This document shows positions 16,495-58,734 of a stretch of 64,000 nt of DNA, in pieces. The stretch covers positions 186,001-250,000 of the forward strand of contig NZ_JASAOF010000005.1 of assembly GCF_029952525.1 (NCBI RefSeq), read 5' to 3'. This stretch comes from Saccharopolyspora ipomoeae. GTDB lineage: Bacteria; Actinomycetota; Actinomycetes; Mycobacteriales; Pseudonocardiaceae. The number at the start of each line of letters is the position of its first letter. The first letter of the stretch is position 1. The position numbers and the translations under genes were made by a program. A model generated the notes under the pieces. The model made no database searches. It was not told the DNA's origin and saw only the letters and a list, made by a program, of their open reading frames with translations.

Positions 16495-16565
16495 CTCATT
16501 TCTCGCTCCGACACGCCCATGTTGGTGTTGGACGTCGCCTCAGACCCCACATGTAGAGTGTCGCT
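16495..16565 (+). promoter_or_regulatory. Promoter region before the nrdA riboswitch
   Basis: Short gap after rox. A plausible promoter is TTGGAC at 16528-16533 with TGTAGA at 16552-16557 (18-base spacer), placing the start of transcription at or just before the riboswitch. The boxes are far from consensus, so the call is tentative. Confidence 0.35.
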
Positions 16566-16796
16566 CGCTGGTGGTTCACCGGGCCCGCGCGGGTCCGGTG
16601 TGGCAACAGGGAACCCGGTGCGAATCCGGGACTGCCCCGCAGCGGTGAACGGGAACGACCGCCGTCATCACGCACTGAGCCCCTCGGGTTCGGGAAGCGA
16701 CGGTTAGTAGGACCGGTCTCGTGGTGGGGAAGTTTTCATGAAAACTTCCCCGCCCCGAACGAGACCGGACGCCCGTGAGTCCGAAGACCTGCCATC
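16566..16796 (+). ncRNA. Cobalamin riboswitch controlling nrdAB
   Basis: Class I adenosylcobalamin aptamer. The landmarks are in order: GGTTCACCGGG start, the AACCCGGTGCGAATCCGGGA stem, CTGCCCCGCAGCGGTGAA, and the B12 box GAGTCCGAAGACCTGCCAT at 16777-16795. It sits about 140 bases before the nrdA start. When cobalamin is plentiful it should shut off the B12-independent class I reductase, as shown for nrdABS in Streptomyces. The variable peripheral stem is enlarged by the dispersed palindrome. The downstream platform shares an 18-base GAGCTCGCGAGGAGAGAG with the metE leader, containing the ribosome site. Confidence 0.9.
16713..16768. repeat. Dispersed palindrome inside the nrdA riboswitch
   Basis: A 26-bp perfect palindrome at 16726-16751, centred on CATG, with the family core AAGTTTTCATGAAAACTT. 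It is capped onto a second stem (CCGGTCTCGT at 16713-16722 pairing with 16759-16768), so RNA would fold as one long hairpin in the riboswitch's facultative peripheral arm. Conserved aptamer positions are untouched. Confidence 0.85.
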
Positions 16797-16938
16797 GGCG
16801 CGCGCACGACCGTGCGCGCCGTCCGGGACCTCGCGGGAGGGTCCACGCGGACATGCGACGAGCGCTGCCGTCGCGTCCTCGCGTGCTGTCGCCGCCGGTT
16901 CCGGGCACGACTTCCGAGCTCGCGAGGAGAGAGTCCCG

Positions 16939-19314
16939 GTGACCGACACCGCACTGTCCGAACCCATTCCGCTCACCCGGGCGTCCACCGTGGTCGAGCA
17001 GGCCTGCGCGGGGCTCGTCGACGTGGACCCGTCGGCGGTGCTCACCGAGGTCGAGCGCAACATCTACCCCGGGATCGGCGAGGCCGAGCTGAGCGAAGCG
17101 CTCATCATGTCCGCGCGCACGCTCGTGGAGTCCGAGCCGAACTACTCCCGGGTCACCGCGCGGCTGCTGCTGGACAAGCTGCGCGGCGAAGCGCTCAGCC
17201 ACCTGGCCGGAACGCCGCGGCAGGCCGACCAGGACCAGATGCGCGACGACTACGCCGCCTACTTCGCCGACTACGTGCGGCACGGCATCGACCTGGGCCG
17301 GCTGGACCCGGAGCTGGCGCGCTTCGACCTGCCGCGCCTGGGCGCGGCGCTGGAGGCCGAGCGCGACCTGGCCTTCGACTTCCTGGGGCTGCAGACCCTC
17401 TACGACCGGTACTTCCTGCACGACGGCGGCACCCGCTTCGAGCTGCCGCAGGCGTTCTTCATGCGGGTCGCGATGGGCCTGGCGCTGCGCGAGGACGACC
17501 GCGACGCGCGGGCCGTCGAGTTCTACCGGTTGCTGTCGTCGTTCGACTTCATGGCCTCCACGCCCACGCTGTTCAACTCCGGGACCACCCGGCCGCAGCT
17601 GTCCTCGTGCTTCCTGACCACTGTGGACGACGACCTGCAGTCGATCTTCAGCTCGTACCGGAACAACGCGCTGCTGGCCAAGTACTCCGGTGGCCTGGGC
17701 AACGACTGGACGCCGGTGCGCGGCATCGGCGCGCACATCCACGGCACCAACGGCGAGTCGCAGGGCGTGGTGCCGTTCCTCAAGATCGCCAACGACACGG
17801 CGGTGGCGGTCAACCAGGGCGGCAAGCGCAAGGGCGCGGTGTGCGCCTACCTGGAGACCTGGCACATCGACGTCGAGGAGTTCCTCGACCTGCGCAAGAA
17901 CACCGGTGACGACCGGCGGCGCACCCACGACATGAACACCGCGAACTGGGTGCCCGACGAGTTCCTGCACCGCGTCGAGGCCGACGAGTCCTGGACCCTG
18001 TTCTCCCCGGACGAGACCCCTGACCTGCACGACCTCTACGGCGAGGAGTTCGCCGAGCGCTACCGCGCCTACGAGGCCGCGGCCGATCGCGGCGAGATCC
18101 GGGTGTTCCGGCGGGTGCGCGCGGTGGAGCTGTGGCGGCGGATGCTGACCATGCTGTTCGAGACCGGGCACCCGTGGATCACCTTCAAGGACCCGTGCAA
18201 CCTGCGCTCGCCGCAGCGGCACACCGGCGTGGTGCACTCGTCGAACCTGTGCACCGAGATCACCCTGAACACCGCCGCCGACGAGGTCGCGGTGTGCAAC
18301 CTGGGGTCGGTGAACCTCGCCCGGCACGTCACCGCCGAGGGGCTCGACCGCGACCGGCTGGCCGCGACCGTGCGCACGGCGGTGCGGATGCTGGACAACG
18401 TGATCGACATCAACTTCTACACGATCCCGGAGGCGGAGCGGTCCAACTCCCGGCACCGGCCGGTCGGGCTCGGGCTGATGGGCTTCTCCGACGCGCTGCT
18501 CGCCCAGCGGATCCCGATGTCCTCGCCGGAGGCGGTGGAGTTCGCCGACCGCAGCATGGAGGAGATCAGCTACCACGCGATCGCGGCCTCCAGCGCTCTC
18601 GCCGAGGAGCGGGGGCGCTACGAGACCTTCGACGGATCGCTGTGGAGCCGGGGCGTGCTGCCGATCGACTCGCAGGAGTTCCTGCGCCCCTCGCGCGAAC
18701 TGGACGGTTCGTCCGCTCTGGACTGGGACGCGCTGCGGGAACGCGTGCGCGACAACGGGATGCGCAACTCCAACGTGATGGCGATCGCGCCGACCGCGAC
18801 CATCGCCAACATCTGCGGAGTCGGGCAGTCGATCGAACCGCTGTACCGCAACCTCTACGTCAAGTCGAACATGTCCGGTGACTTCACCGTTGTCAACCCG
18901 CACCTGGTGGCCGACCTCAAGCGCGCCGGGCTGTGGGACGAGGCGATGGTGGCGGACCTGAAGTTCTTCGACGGCTCGCTGGGACCGATCGACCGGATCC
19001 CCGACGAGCTGAAGTCCCTCTACGCCACGGCCTTCGAGATCGAGCCGCGGTGGCTGGTCGAGGCCGCGGCGCGGCGGCAGAAGTGGATCGACCAGGCCCA
19101 GTCGCTGAACCTGTACCTGGCCACGCCCAGCGGCCGCAAGCTCGACGAGCTCTACCGGCTGGCCTGGCGCAAGGGCCTCAAGACCACCTACTACCTGCGC
19201 TCCTCCAGCGCCACCCACGTGGAGAAGTCCACGCTGCGCGGAACCGACGGCAAGCTCAACGCCGTCCCGGCCGCCTGCTCGGTGGAGGACCCGGAATGCG
19301 AGGCATGCCAGTGA
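16939..19314 (+). CDS. nrdA: Ribonucleoside-diphosphate reductase alpha subunit, class I
   Basis: 791 residues from a GTG with a GAGGAGAGAG ribosome site. An ATP-cone allosteric domain occupies roughly the first 100 residues. Catalytic elements follow: SSCFLTT (first redox cysteine), SSNLCTEI (thiyl-radical cysteine with the Asn and Glu partners), CNLGSVNL (second redox cysteine), the radical-relay tyrosine pair in [11 protein letters not shown], and a C-terminal CEACQ shuttle pair. It reduces NDPs to dNDPs with NrdB. It is B12-independent and lies under a cobalamin riboswitch, so a B12-dependent NrdJ probably exists elsewhere. Its stop overlaps the nrdB start. Confidence 0.95.
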
Positions 19315-20399
19315 CTTCCCAGATGAGCACCACGACCGGCCCGAGCACCACGACCGGATTGGGCGCCATCGACCGCGACGGCGGACGCGTCGACGTCACC
19401 GACAAGGCGATGATCAACTCCCGGGCGGACGTCAACCAGCTGCTGCCGCTGAAGTACGGCTGGGCGTGGGACAAGTACCTGTCGGGGTGCAACAACCACT
19501 GGATGCCCACCGAGGTGTCGATGCAGGCCGACATCGCGCTGTGGAAGTCCCGCGACGGGCTCACCGACGACGAGCGCACCATGCTCAAGCGCAACCTCGG
19601 GTTCTTCGCGACTGCGGAATCGCTGGTGGCCAACAACATCGTGCTCGCGGTGTACCGCCACCTGACCAACCCGGAGTGCCGGCAGTACCTGCTGCGGCAG
19701 GCCTTCGAGGAGGCCGTGCACACCCACACGTTCCAGTACATCTGCGAGAGCCTGGGGCTGGACGAGGGCGAGCTGTTCAACGCCTACCGGGAGGTCCCGT
19801 CGATCGCCGACAAGGACGCGTGGGCGCTGCGCTACACCCAGAACCTGGAGAACCCGGACTTCGCGACCGGGACGCCGGAAGCCGACCAGGCGTTCCTGCG
19901 GGACCTCATCGCGTTCTACGTGATCTTCGAGGGCATGTGGTTCTACACCGGGTTCGCGCAGATCCTGTCGCTGGGCAGGCGGAACAAGATGGTCGGGATC
20001 GCCGAGCAGTACCAGTACATCCTGCGCGACGAGTCGATCCACCTGAACTTCGGGATCGACTGCATCAACCAGATCAAGCTGGAGAACCCGCACCTGTGGA
20101 CCCCGGAGTTCCAGCAGGAGGCCCGCACGATGCTGCGCGAGGCGTGCGAGCTGGAGAACGCCTACGGCCGGGACACCATGCCGCGCGGGATGCTCGGGCT
20201 CAACGCCGAGCTGTGCGAGCAGTACATGCACTTCATCACCAACCGCCGCTGCGCCCAGCTCGGCCTGGAACCGGTCTTCCCCGAGACGGACAACCCCTTC
20301 CCCTGGATGTCGGAAACGATGGACCTCAAGAAGGAGAAGAACTTCTTCGAAACCCGGGTCACCGAGTACCAGTCGGGCGCGGCGCTGAGCTGGGACTGA
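19311..20399 (+). CDS. nrdB: Ribonucleoside-diphosphate reductase beta subunit, class Ic-like
   Basis: 362 residues from the GTG that overlaps the nrdA stop (GTGA); an ATG two codons earlier is an alternative. Metal ligands read as Glu103, Glu134, His137, Glu207, Glu241 and His244. Two positions depart from E. coli NrdB: the first ligand is Glu (ATAES) where E. coli has Asp84, and the radical tyrosine position is Phe141 (EAVHTHTF, against ETIHSRSY). Both features define the Chlamydia-type class Ic subunit, which stores its oxidant on a Mn/Fe centre rather than a tyrosyl radical. Whole blocks ([34 protein letters not shown]) match the chlamydial protein. Confidence 0.93.
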
Positions 20400-20423
20400 C
20401 CGCCGCGGCGGGACCGTTGGTCA

Positions 20424-20503
20424 CCAGGTGACGGTTTTAGCCATAATTGACCGGGCATAACGGACATTGATCATGGGTGATTACGGCTAAAACCGTCCAC
20501 TTG
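20424..20503. repeat. Structured repeat element, copy A
   Basis: A conserved core (AATTGACCGG ... AACGGAC ... TTGATCATGG ... TGATT) enclosed by a perfect 13-bp stem, GACGGTTTTAGCC at 20430-20442 with its complement at 20485-20497. The stem extends outward through CAGGT/ACTTG with one bulge and one wobble. Copy B at 35175-35254 has the same core but different arm sequences that still pair. It lies between the convergent nrdB and metE. Confidence 0.75.
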
Positions 20504-20538
20504 CAACGACCGTTGTCACCGTGAGCCGCCGCCGGGGC

Positions 20539-20572
20539 CCGGGGGCGAGCCTTTGATCAGGCTCGCCCCCGG
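20539..20572. terminator. Hairpin terminator of metE
   Basis: Perfect 14-bp stem, CCGGGGGCGAGCCT at 20539-20552 with its complement at 20559-20572 around TTGATC. It is immediately past the metE stop and can also catch nrdAB transcripts. Confidence 0.7.
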
Positions 20573-20584
20573 TTTCCGGGGTGG

Positions 20585-22855
20585 TCAGGCTCGGAGGCGG
20601 TGGGCCGCCTCCGCCATGTTGCGGAGGGCACGTTCGACCTCGGCGTAGTCGCGCGTCTTGAGACCGCAGTCGGGGTTGACCCACAGGCGTTCGGCCGGAA
20701 CGGCCTGCACAGCGGTCTTGAGCAGCTCGGCCATCTCCTCGACACCGGGAACGCGGGGCGAGTGGATGTCGTAGACGCCCGGGCCCACGCCCCGGTCGAA
20801 GCCGACCTCGTTGAGGTCGGCGAGGACCTCCATGCGGGAGCGGGCCGCCTCGATGCTGGTGACGTCGGCGTCGAGGGCCACGATCGCGTCGATGACGTCG
20901 CCGAACTCCGAGTAGCACAGGTGGGTGTGGATCTGCGTCGCCTCCGCCACCCCGGACGTCGCGAGCCGGAACGACTCCACCGCCCAGTCCAGGTAGGCCG
21001 AGCGCTGGTCGGCGCGCAGCGGGAGGAGTTCGCGCAGCGCGGGTTCGTCGACCTGCACCACGCGGATCCCGGCGGCCTCCAGGTCGCGGACCTCGTCGCG
21101 GACGGCCAGCGCGACCTGGCGCGCGGTGTCGGCCTGCGGCTGGTCGTCGCGCACGAACGACCACGCCAGGATCGTCACCGGGCCGGTGAGCATGCCCTTG
21201 ACGGGCTTGTCGGTGAGCCGCTGCGCGTGCTCGGCCCACTCCACGGTCATCGGTTCCGGCCGCCACACGTCGCCGAACAGGATCGGCGGCCGGACGCAGC
21301 GGGAACCGTAGGACTGCACCCAGCCGTGATCGGTGGTGGCGAAGCCTTCGAGCTGCTCCGCGAAGTACTGGACCATGTCGTTGCGCTCGGGTTCGCCGTG
21401 CACGAGCACGTCGAGCCCGAGGTCCTCCTGCAGCGCGATGACCCGCTCGACCTCGTCGCGCATCCGCTGCCGGTAGGTGGCCTGGTCGATGCGCCCTGCC
21501 CGCAGCGCCGCGCGGGCCTTGCGGACGTCGGTGGTCTGCGGGAAGGAGCCGATCGTGGTGGTCGGCAGCGGCGGCAGCCGCAACGACTTCTCCTGCGCGG
21601 CTTGCCGTTCCGGGTAGTCCGCGCGCCGCGAGTCGCCCGGCCGGAGCGAGTCGAGCCTGGCGCGGACGCGATTGTTGCGGACCCGCTCGGCCGCGGCCCG
21701 GTCGGCGATGGCGGCGCGCGCGTCGGCGAGCTCGGCGTCGACGACGTCCCGCCCCTCCCGCAGGGCGAGGCCGAGGGTGACGACCTCGCGGACCTTCTGC
21801 GCTGCGAACGACAACCACGGTTTGACCTGCGGATCCAGGCTTGGTTCGGCGTCGACGTCGTAGGGCACGTGCAGCAGCGGGCACGAGGTGCCCAGGGCGA
21901 GCTCGTCGGCCGAACCGAGCAGCGTGGCCGCGGTGGTCAGGCACCGGTCGAGATCGGCGCGCCAGACGTTGCGGCCGTCGACCACGCCCGCGACCAGGAC
22001 CTTGTCCCGCAGCCCGGTGGTGGCCACGACGTTGTCCTGAGTGGACGGATCGGTGACGAGGTCGACCGCGATGCCCTCGACGGGCGTCGAGGCGAGCACC
22101 CCGAGCGCGTCTCCGGGATCGCCGAAGTAGCAGGCGGACAGGATCGCGGGCCGTTCGGTCAGGTCGCCGAGCCGCCGGTAGGTGTTGCGCAGCGCGTCGA
22201 GCTCCCCCGGCGTCCGGTCGGCGGCCAGGGCGGGCTCGTCGAGCTGCACCCACTCCGCCCCCGCGCGGTGCAGCTCACCGAGCAGGCCCTCGTAGGCGTC
22301 GGTGAGCTCGGCGAGCTTGTCGAGCGGGTCGAAACCCTCCACCGCGGGCTTGCTGAGCAGCAGGAACGTCAACGGCCCCACCAGGACCGGCCGGGTCTCG
22401 ACGCCCAGCTTCCGGGCCTCCCGGAACTGCTCGACGACGGTGGTGTCGGTGAGCGCGAAGCGCGTGTCCGGGCCGATCTCGGGCACCAGGTAGTGGTAGT
22501 TGGTGTCGAACCACTTCGTCATCTCCAGCGGCGGCACCGCCTCGGTGCCGCGCGCCATCGCGAAGTAGGTGTCCAGCGCACCGAGTCCCAGCTCGACGTA
22601 GCGGGGTGGGACGGCGCCGAAGGTGACGGCGGTGTCCAGGACCTGGTCGTAGTAGGAGAACGTGGTGCCCGGCACCGAGTCGAGGCCGGCCTGGGCCAGC
22701 TCCCGCCAGGTGTTCTCCCGCAGCGTGCGCGCGACCTCGCGCAGTTCCGCCTCGTCGCTGCGCCCGGCCCAGTAGGACTCCAGGGCGCGCTTGAGCTCCC
22801 GGTTCGGGCCGATCCGGGGATATCCGAGGACGGTGGATCCGATCTTGCTGGTCAA
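20585..22855 (-). CDS. metE: Cobalamin-independent methionine synthase
   Basis: 756 residues, full length for MetE. The N-terminal half begins [27 protein letters not shown]. The C-terminal catalytic half has [10 protein letters not shown], the [14 protein letters not shown] loop and the zinc ligands in [10 protein letters not shown] and [10 protein letters not shown]. It methylates homocysteine from polyglutamyl 5-methyltetrahydrofolate. The TTG start at 22855 is chosen because GAGGAGAGAG lies just upstream, the same leader motif as nrdA, and because MetE proteins begin at this point. Repressed by cobalamin through its riboswitch; a B12-dependent MetH is the implied alternative. Confidence 0.95.
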
Positions 22856-22997
22856 CGCTCTCTCCTCGCGAGCTCGACTTCGACGGTCGAGGTCCTCGCG
22901 ACAGGCGCGCCGACCCGCGGGCGCACCTCGCCCACCGGTCGTCCGCCAGGTCCTCCCGCGAGACCTCGGACCAGCGCGCGCCGGCGGCGCGCGCACC
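22856..22997 (-). promoter_or_regulatory. Expression platform between riboswitch and metE
   Basis: 142 bases linking the B12 box to the TTG start. Shared with the nrdA leader: CTGCCATCGG then a GCGCGC-rich hairpin, CTCGCGGGAGG, and GAGCTCGCGAGGAGAGAG ending in the ribosome site. CTCGCGAG is self-complementary and can pair with the upstream copies, which would hide the ribosome site. That suggests translational control, an inference from sequence only. Confidence 0.5.
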
Positions 22998-23235
22998 GAT
23001 GGCAGGTATTCGGACTCGCGGGCAACCGTCGGCGTGTCGGGGGGAAGTTTTCATGAAAACTTCCCCCACCCACCGAACGGACCTACTGGCCGTCGCTTCC
23101 CAGGCCGCGAGGCCCAGTGCTCATGACGGCGGTCGTTCCCGCTCACCGCTGCGGGGCAGTCCCGGATTCGCACCGGGTTCCCTCTTGCCTCGCCCGAACC
23201 GCGCTCAGCGCAACCGCCCGGACGAACCACCAGCG
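22998..23235 (-). ncRNA. Cobalamin riboswitch controlling metE
   Basis: Reading on the minus strand: start CGCTGGTGGTTCGTCCGG, then the AACCCGGTGCGAATCCGGGA stem, CTGCCCCGCAGCGGTGAG, and the B12 box GAGTCCGAATACCTGCCAT (complement of 22999-23017). It is a paralogue of the nrdA riboswitch in the same order and spacing, and it also carries the dispersed palindrome in its peripheral arm. Cobalamin binding should turn metE off. Confidence 0.9.
23040..23067. repeat. Dispersed palindrome inside the metE riboswitch
   Basis: 28-bp perfect palindrome, five Gs then AAGTTTTCA and the mirror image, centred on CATG. It lies in the variable arm between the B12 box and the conserved core, the same place as in the nrdA riboswitch. 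Confidence 0.85.
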
Positions 23236-23355
23236 CCCCCAGCCTATCCGGACGCGACCCGCTGACAACCCCGTTCCCGAGCCCCGGGCCCCCGACACGC
23301 GAGCTGAGCACCGGTTCGCCGCGCGAGGAGATCCCGATCACGCCCCGGTGGCGGA
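23236..23355. other. Promoter-side gap between metE riboswitch and VOC gene
   Basis: 120 bp that must hold the metE promoter (minus strand) and the end of the VOC transcript. I see no clear -35/-10 pair or hairpin in it. Confidence 0.3.
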
Positions 23356-34960: not shown

Positions 34961-35129
34961 AAGTTTTCATGAAAACCGTCCTCACCCCAAAACCCATGAA
35001 GTTCTCACGAAAACCGCCATCGTTCGACGTGAGGGAGACACCCACGAACTCCCCCACCTCAGAGGGAGGGAAGTTTTCATGAAAACTGTCACCTCTCAGG
35101 GAACGGGAAGTTTTCATGAAAACTTCCCG
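34961..35129. repeat. Cluster of four dispersed palindromes
   Basis: Copies: GTTTTCATGAAAAC at 34963-34976; a degenerate GAAGTTCTCACGAAAAC around 34999-35015; AGTTTTCATGAAAACT at 35072-35087; and a 26-bp perfect palindrome at 35104-35129 (CGGG then AAGTTTTCA, mirrored). The gradient from perfect to degraded copies suggests repeated insertion or duplication followed by decay. Confidence 0.8.
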
Positions 35130-46164: not shown

Positions 46165-46340
46165 AACGACAGTTCTCATGAAAACTTCCCGTCCCCGGGG
46201 AAATGACAGTTTTCATGAAAACTTCCCTCCCCCTGAGAACGAGAGTGTTCGTGTACACCTCCCTCACCTCGAAAGACGGTGGTCTTCGTGAGATTTTCCC
46301 GATTTCTGGGGTGAGGAAGGTTTTCATGAAAACTTCCCGA
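46165..46340. repeat. Array of dispersed palindromes between rhaI and rhaD
   Basis: Five adjacent copies in varied states: AGTTCTCATGAAAACT at 46171-46186, AGTTTTCATGAAAACT at 46208-46223, two eroded ones (around 46243-46262 and 46281-46300), and GTTTTCATGAAAAC at 46320-46333 flanked by GGAAG/CTTCC. The last ends 26 bases before the rhaD start. They could form one transcript hairpin each and separate rhaI from rhaDB expression. Confidence 0.8.
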
Positions 46341-54504: not shown

Positions 54505-54524
54505 GAAGTTTTCATGAAAACTTC
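54505..54524. repeat. Dispersed palindrome copy after the thioesterase gene
   Basis: 20-bp palindrome GAAGTTTTCATGAAAACTTC, preceded by four further Gs that lack C partners on the other side. It lies 13 bases past the thioesterase stop on the plus strand, where it could act as a terminator. Confidence 0.8.
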
Positions 54525-58696: not shown

Positions 58697-58734
58697 GGGT
58701 TGGGGGAAGTTTTCATGAAAACTTCCCCCAACCC
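58697..58734. repeat. 38-bp perfect palindrome (longest copy of the family)
   Basis: GGGTTGGGGG then AAGTTTTCA and the exact mirror image, centred on CATG at 58714-58717. It is between the convergent GMC and MFS genes and would form a strong hairpin in either transcript. It is the longest perfect copy found here. Confidence 0.88.

Follow-up and report, generated by a model that had tools for sequence, protein, structure and literature searches.

Both cobalamin riboswitches in a 64,000-nucleotide stretch of the Saccharopolyspora ipomoeae genome (contig NZ_JASAOF010000005.1, positions 186,001 to 250,000; the whole stretch is hereafter the window) carry the same palindrome in a peripheral arm, between the aptamer core and the B12 box. 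An earlier note, made from the sequence alone, had pointed to this arrangement, and the observation is confirmed. The palindrome belongs to a hairpin family dispersed through this genome and those of a few congeners. With a probability of about 0.7, we favor the explanation that a mobile hairpin resembling repetitive extragenic palindromes (REPs) multiplied in a few Saccharopolyspora and is tolerated in the facultative arm of these riboswitches. Palindromes scattered through bacterial genomes are often regarded as filler at the ends of genes. In this case, one such family sits within a regulatory RNA whose architecture is known, beside palindrome-free orthologues, and its cost or benefit could therefore be measured on natural alleles.

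One palindrome in the arms of two riboswitches

The exact 18-base palindrome AAGTTTTCATGAAAACTT occurs at positions 16730-16747 and 23045-23062 of the window, and matches with up to three mismatches number 10, compared to none in 100 dinucleotide shuffles. Both exact copies lie within full-length matches (model positions 1-189 of 189) to the Rfam Cobalamin family RF00174, one at 16555-16810 on the plus strand (93.5 bits) and one at 22984-23246 on the minus strand (80.4 bits), against a gathering threshold of 31.5. The first aptamer is followed by nrdA (16939-19314, plus strand, PF02867/PF00317) and nrdB (19323-20399, plus strand, PF00268), encoding the large and small chains of ribonucleotide reductase, and the second by metE (20585-22855, minus strand, PF01717/PF08267), encoding the cobalamin-independent methionine synthase, all assigned through Pfam; nrdAB and metE are convergent. 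In each aptamer, AAGTTTTCATGAAAACTT aligns as insert letters between model positions 151 and 152. Because this insert precedes the last, B12-box-bearing part of the model, no modeled base is displaced, and the statement of the earlier note that no conserved aptamer base is disturbed holds. So does its description of the nrdA copy as capped on its own stem: the facultative arm there (59 nt, 16712-16770, plus strand), delimited by sequence, arm extraction, alignment with relatives and folding, folds into a single long hairpin tipped by the palindrome (-41.7 kcal/mol over 64 nt, z -7.6). The metE arm, delimited by sequence, arm extraction and folding, spans 58 nt (23024-23081, minus strand) and is likewise capped by the palindrome. 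The aptamer core and B12 box thus fit RF00174, as does variation in length at this insert position of the model, but the sequence that fills the arm here belongs to a repeat family found across the genome.

The arm varies widely among relatives. Cobalamin riboswitches are present in all 22 congeners that we compared, and a motif search over selected loci recovered 18 distinct arms from 13 genomes, a subset of the riboswitches in the 22. Four of these arms contain the palindrome, namely those of nrdA and metE in this genome (G000 in our labels) and in Saccharopolyspora flava DSM 44771 (G063). The other 14, from 11 genomes, lack it; twelve are 16-29 nt long and two are 46 and 49 nt, five having been folded and the others judged by eye. 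Counting every cobalamin riboswitch in the three main carriers of the family, the palindrome is found in 4 of 20: two of six here, two of seven in S. flava and none of seven in Saccharopolyspora dendranthemae DSM 46699 (G197). At nrdA the geometry of the change can be read directly. The arm of congener G201 reads ACCGGTCT-TGCAGACG-AGACCGG, and this genome retains ACCGGTCT and ACGAGACCGG on either side of the palindromic unit, so that the stem seen in G201, ACCGGTCT/AGACCGG, which we take as ancestral, is kept and the loop is swapped for the unit. At metE, the stem is altered. The first of two options raised in the earlier note, in which a spreading element is accommodated by the facultative arm, is supported by an arm made of 16-49 nt of other sequence in all 14 palindrome-free cases, and by the lineage-restricted dispersal described below.

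A dispersed hairpin that lies mainly behind genes

The 14-mer core of the palindrome, GTTTTCATGAAAAC, occurs at 271 sites in this 6.6-Mb genome, where the reversed word occurs 0 times. Among the 22 Saccharopolyspora genomes it is present in four (271 sites here, 336 in S. flava, 53 in S. dendranthemae and 1 in a fourth congener) and absent from 18. An even sample of 200 genomes from the family contained it in three, every one a Saccharopolyspora, and a scan of GTDB genomes returned at least 77 stretches, of which, among the matches listed, all come from S. flava or S. dendranthemae. Neither the exact 14-mer nor a dispersed palindrome in a cobalamin riboswitch was found in the literature searched, outside of which most subscription papers lay. 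A phage origin was also considered and rejected, as the exact 18-mer was not found in the viral collection (viral_contigs).

Pairing extends well beyond the core. Across 183 distinct contexts, which pool species and include neighbors within arrays as well as orthologues, bases beyond the 14-mer pair across the center more often than after shuffling of right arms among sites; at 11 of the first 16 positions, some of them with three or four pair types, the observed pairing was reached in none of 1000 shuffles. As these contexts were chosen by the exact 14-mer, the core is necessarily constant among them, and the test bears on the arms only. Perfect pairing over 14 or more positions beyond the 14-mer is seen in 16 of the 33 S. 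dendranthemae contexts, where 500 shuffles gave a mean of 1.2 such contexts and never more than 5, and sites of this species taken with 36 flanking bases per side fold at -23.6 to -70.8 kcal/mol. Because the arms covary, the unit is a hairpin, and the palindrome is the conserved tip, approximately GGGGAAGTTTTCATGAAAACTTCCCC, of a short non-coding hairpin on a longer stem. The stem beneath the tip has a G/T-rich and a C/A-rich strand and is partly specific to the locus. Since the palindrome is perfect, the orientation of a copy is undefined. Copies are most commonly spaced 37 bp apart in this genome and in S. flava; the S. dendranthemae loci hold one pair closer than 400 bp.

The palindrome lies mainly behind genes, most often between convergent ones, and the two riboswitches are exceptions to this rule. 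Genes were called with a home-made codon-usage caller rather than a standard annotator, and an exact 22-mer served to select 8-kb loci from S. flava and S. dendranthemae; some of these loci overlap the S. flava contig C15 discussed below, so the sets are not independent. The loci hold 87 clusters, of which 38 lie between convergent genes, 28 between tandem and 4 between divergent genes, 15 at an edge and 2 inside a called gene, and 25 of the 28 tandem clusters are closer to the upstream stop than to the downstream start. Three regions of this genome gave 18 clusters (10 convergent, 7 tandem, 1 edge), with four of the seven tandem clusters closer to the stop and the riboswitches accounting for two of the remaining three. 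On S. flava contig C15, four of 11 clusters are convergent and four tandem, all four closer to the stop. Convergent gaps are the rarest kind: among the 613 gaps in four regions that measure 30 bp or more, they number 97. Some observations weigh against so simple a picture. The other 3 of the 11 clusters on C15 lie between divergent genes, and distance to the stop codon, taken alone, is weak evidence for a gene-end preference: a stop lies no more than 60 bp away for 11 of 17 clusters in this genome (9.1 expected from random placement), for 6 of 11 on C15 (4.9 expected) and for 51 of 70 placed clusters in the loci (random mean 39.9, maximum 51, 400 draws).

The remaining copies in the window illustrate these contexts. 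One array (34961-35125, copies starting at 34961, 35071 and 35108) has convergent genes on either side, and a second (46170-46335, copies at 46170, 46207 and 46318) occupies a gap whose G201 orthologue is 58 nt long and palindrome-free. A single copy at 54506-54523 has its 14-mer core 17 bp past a stop codon, and another at 58707-58724 is flanked by convergent genes. The two arrays can also be described as composite units of about 170-190 bp with several palindromes at spacings of about 37 and 111 bp; both are found at the orthologous places in S. flava, and the second in S. dendranthemae as well, but not in G201.

This distribution invites a reading in which the palindrome is a factor-independent bidirectional terminator that, within the riboswitches, constitutively attenuates nrdAB and metE. 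The bias toward gene ends, the position of the hairpin just behind genes and the ordinary terminator-like hairpins that several of the same slots hold in relatives are all consistent with it. In both leaders, however, polymerase must pass the palindrome before it reaches the B12 box and the start codon, no U run follows the palindrome, and the genes beyond have full-length family matches. As an efficient terminator would silence nrdAB and metE, strong termination is unlikely there, and we regard this explanation as a minority possibility.

Possible routes into the riboswitch arms

In the explanation we favor, a REP-like hairpin would have multiplied in a few Saccharopolyspora species, accumulating outside genes and above all behind them. 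A copy would have come to lie in the loop of a cobalamin riboswitch arm in the ancestor that this strain shares with S. flava, lengthening a dispensable helix between the core and the B12 box. Since the arm closes on its own stem outside the modeled core, the longer hairpin would be tolerated. The second riboswitch, about 6.3 kb away and inverted, may then have gained its palindrome through local gene conversion of the arm and the hairpin preceding it or, alternatively, through a second independent insertion. Calculation shows the dispersal, the restriction to a lineage, the covariation of the hairpin, the bias toward gene ends, the variability of the arm in relatives and the loop geometry at nrdA and at one terminator-like hairpin; mobility and its mechanism, gene conversion and neutrality for switching are what we infer here, and several points count against them. 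A search of 22 genomes for Y1 transposases (PF01797), the one transposase family searched, found none in the three main carriers. In alignments read by eye rather than searched systematically, we noticed no target-site duplication. The neutrality for B12 sensing is itself presumed from the position of the insert.

A hairpin outside the riboswitches shows the same loop geometry as nrdA. At locus L110 in S. dendranthemae, the stem of a hairpin is retained and the palindromic unit occupies its loop, while the orthologues in G201, G000, G063, G025 and G209 have a plain GC hairpin with a small loop just past the stop codon. We read by hand 14 sites with an alignable orthologue lacking this palindrome, L110 and both riboswitches included, a small set that is not a statistical test; at 7 of them, a relative has an ordinary hairpin. 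The stem is kept at L110 and nrdA, and only its base at L144. These sites raise the possibility, which we hold tentatively, that a gene-less palindromic mobile element reads hairpins by shape and inserts into their apical loops. Structure-guided insertion of hairpin into hairpin without a REP-associated tyrosine transposase (RAYT) would explain both the bias toward gene ends and the riboswitch copies; under it, terminators and riboswitch arms of unrelated sequence would gain the same cap and keep their own stems. Not all of the hand-read set fits insertion of this kind. Only nrdA and L110 show clear placement in a loop with the stem kept, and L144 shows it in part; insertion guided by hairpin tips rests on these three sites. 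The earlier hairpin is largely replaced at metE, L084, L117 and the G063 79252/L136 slot, and G091 has no hairpin behind the gene at L110. No earlier hairpin is evident in G201 at 4 of the 14 sites (the arrays at C43:232143 and at C33 offsets 110734 and 185614, and a single degenerate copy at C43:131268). At the other 3 (L105, C43:176975 and C43:220963), G201 bears a palindrome pair of its own. Apart from this set, no match spanning G000 C1:24615 was found among the congeners searched, and the copy at C15:193164, present only in S. flava, was left out because its flanks are too diverged. If small mobile hairpins do enter at the tips of other hairpins, as some of the sites compared suggest, then terminator evolution, riboswitch arm evolution and the spread of repeats would be linked.

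The two riboswitches themselves are old. Over 230 kb aligned, nucleotide identity to this genome is 92% in S. flava and 87% in both G201 and G091. A comparison of 246 orthologous gaps in this genome and S. flava found the palindrome in both at nine, in S. flava only at two and here only at none; the metE gap falls outside the nine listed, yet there too the palindrome is common to both species. As the palindrome gaps are shared, most copies in the gaps compared predate the split of the two. Within each of five species, the 5' parts of the nrdA and metE riboswitches are 46-55% identical, far less alike than the 93-100% seen between nrdA orthologues across the same species, which places the origin of the pair well back and rules against a recent duplication of the whole riboswitch. 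In the last stretch of the aptamer, which starts at the B12 box, nrdA orthologues show identities of 0.94-1.00, metE orthologues 0.82-0.97 and the two riboswitches of one species 0.82-0.88. The proposal that one riboswitch copy seeded the other therefore survives at most as local exchange of the arm and the preceding hairpin. The near-duplicate platforms on which it drew do share the ribosome-binding-site string GAGCTCGCGAGGAGAGAG, common to nrdA and metE here; the comparison is of this string, not of aligned platforms, and since the string also occurs in G201, the likeness is older than the palindrome. The palindrome is indeed absent from most relatives read, as would be expected of a recent duplication, but the duplication of a whole riboswitch is not the cause.

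Local exchange leaves traces in some genomes. Identity between the nrdA and metE copies of the hairpin before the arm is 0.93 in S. flava, 0.92 in G201, 0.77 here, 0.79 in G091 and 0.87 in G025; for the arm itself, the values are 0.80, 0.88, 0.72, 0.47 and 0.32 in the same order. The S. flava hairpins are thus more alike within the genome than to their orthologues (0.80-0.88 for nrdA, 0.82-0.90 for metE), as are the G201 arms (0.88 within, compared to 0.34-0.81 for nrdA and 0.32-0.84 for metE orthologues). These identities suggest local gene conversion of the arm and preceding hairpin within S. flava and within G201. Because the G201 nrdA hairpin is identical to those of G091 and G025, the conversion in G201 would have run toward metE. 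Arm exchange is not seen in this genome, G091 or G025 by the same comparison. Here, the within-genome arm identity of 0.72 does not rise above that to the S. flava orthologues (0.76 for nrdA, 0.72 for metE), and so exchange in this genome is not directly supported, which tells against it as the route to the second riboswitch. Nonetheless, the palindrome may be present in both riboswitches because they exchanged sequence locally, and not because a whole riboswitch was duplicated.

The second option raised in the earlier note was that the palindrome is selected in both riboswitches, either stabilizing the arm or binding a protein, and so co-regulating nrdAB and metE or speeding aptamer folding. 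Its presence in both leaders and its retention in two species at 92% identity are the only hint in this direction, alongside the greater stability of the arm (the 64-nt fold given above, compared to -15 kcal/mol for a 30-nt stretch of G201). Against this, the 14 palindrome-free arms of 11 congeners manage without it, as do the four remaining riboswitches of this genome, the other five of S. flava and all seven of S. dendranthemae, and most other copies lie behind genes, not in leaders. We think selection improbable as the cause.

Similar doubt attaches to the palindrome being a REP or REPIN mobilized by a RAYT transposase. Like REPs, REPINs and bacterial interspersed mosaic elements (BIMEs), the family consists of short, mostly extragenic hairpin palindromes, present in hundreds per genome in few species and with a preferred spacing in clusters. 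More than 100 extragenic copies, 37-bp-spaced clusters and a palindromic form agree with REPs as described in PMC2817692 and PMC3116915; the copy number exceeds that figure here (271) and in S. flava (336), with 53 copies in S. dendranthemae. However, PF01797 is unmatched in G000, G063 and G197, and the S. dendranthemae loci hold only that single close pair. The unit has a symmetric AT-rich tip on a GC stem, with flanks that pair on both sides, whereas the REPs of PMC2817692 are imperfect palindromes preceded by a GT(A/G)G head on one side only. Since both the RAYT gene and this head were looked for and not found, we call the family REP-like rather than RAYT-REP, and its placement on some terminator-like hairpin tips and in two riboswitch arms is a further difference from the REPs of those sources.

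The insertion sequence IS1397 enters the loop of a palindromic unit. Insertion sequences with REP palindromes as targets include IS1397, ISKpn1 and IS621 (PMC1525189), and the likeness lies in a mobile element with a palindrome as its target. The inserted thing here is itself a gene-less hairpin of about 40 nt, found at two clean sites in hairpins of unrelated sequence. A last candidate is that DNA-uptake or protein-binding half-sites happen to be paired in the palindrome. Paired DNA uptake signals often form terminator hairpins (PMC2267715), and they resemble the family in being species-specific words that pair into hairpins where genes end. The half-site GGAAGTTTTC, however, is hardly ever solitary: regions of 313, 240 and 298 kb hold 3, 0 and 0 occurrences, respectively, that are not part of an exact palindrome. 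The half-site version is ruled out in these three regions, and we give the candidate almost no weight.

Other hairpin families in the genus

Saccharopolyspora may offer a natural series of such palindrome families. G201 has a dispersed palindrome of its own, AATTTCGCGCGAAATT, with 153 copies, many of the listed ones paired exactly 38 bp apart, among them those on its contigs C6 and C4 (L163-L172, L272-L281); elsewhere, the word occurs 25 times in G174 and 1-6 times in four others. We compared 211 orthologous gaps between this genome and G201 and found 8 with the GTTTTCATGAAAAC family (at most one mismatch), 8 with the G201 family (at most two) and 2 with both, where about 0.3 would be expected by chance (a hand calculation), an overlap that is suggestive only. 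With so few gaps occupied by either family, the idea that every slot holds a palindrome in every species was rejected. The L105 gap holds three hairpin families in different genomes: the GTTTTCATGAAAAC palindrome in G197, a AATTTCGCGCGAAATT pair in G201, and CGAAAACC/GGTTTTCG hairpins in G000 (C33) and G063 (C14).

Another dispersed hairpin element, about 82 bp long and with ends ACCAGGGGACRGTTTT, is present in 2 of the 22 congeners, with 36 end matches in this genome and 49 in S. flava. A diverged copy lies at 20419-20501 of the window, between the convergent nrdB and metE, and further copies include the one at G000 C43:221152-221264. The arm of this element, GGGGACAGTTTT, resembles one arm variant of the GTTTTCATGAAAAC palindrome, for which we considered the element as a possible source. 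We also observed an element of about 525 bp that folds back on itself, its whole length matching its own reverse complement (G063 C15:205770-206294, G000 C43:116078-116582 and G000 C22:196844-197366), with the copies on G063 C15 and G000 C43 each enclosing two copies of the GTTTTCATGAAAAC palindrome. Finally, ATTTCAATTGAAAT occurs three times in 80 kb of G161 (C2:1000001-1080000) and may represent a further species-specific palindrome.

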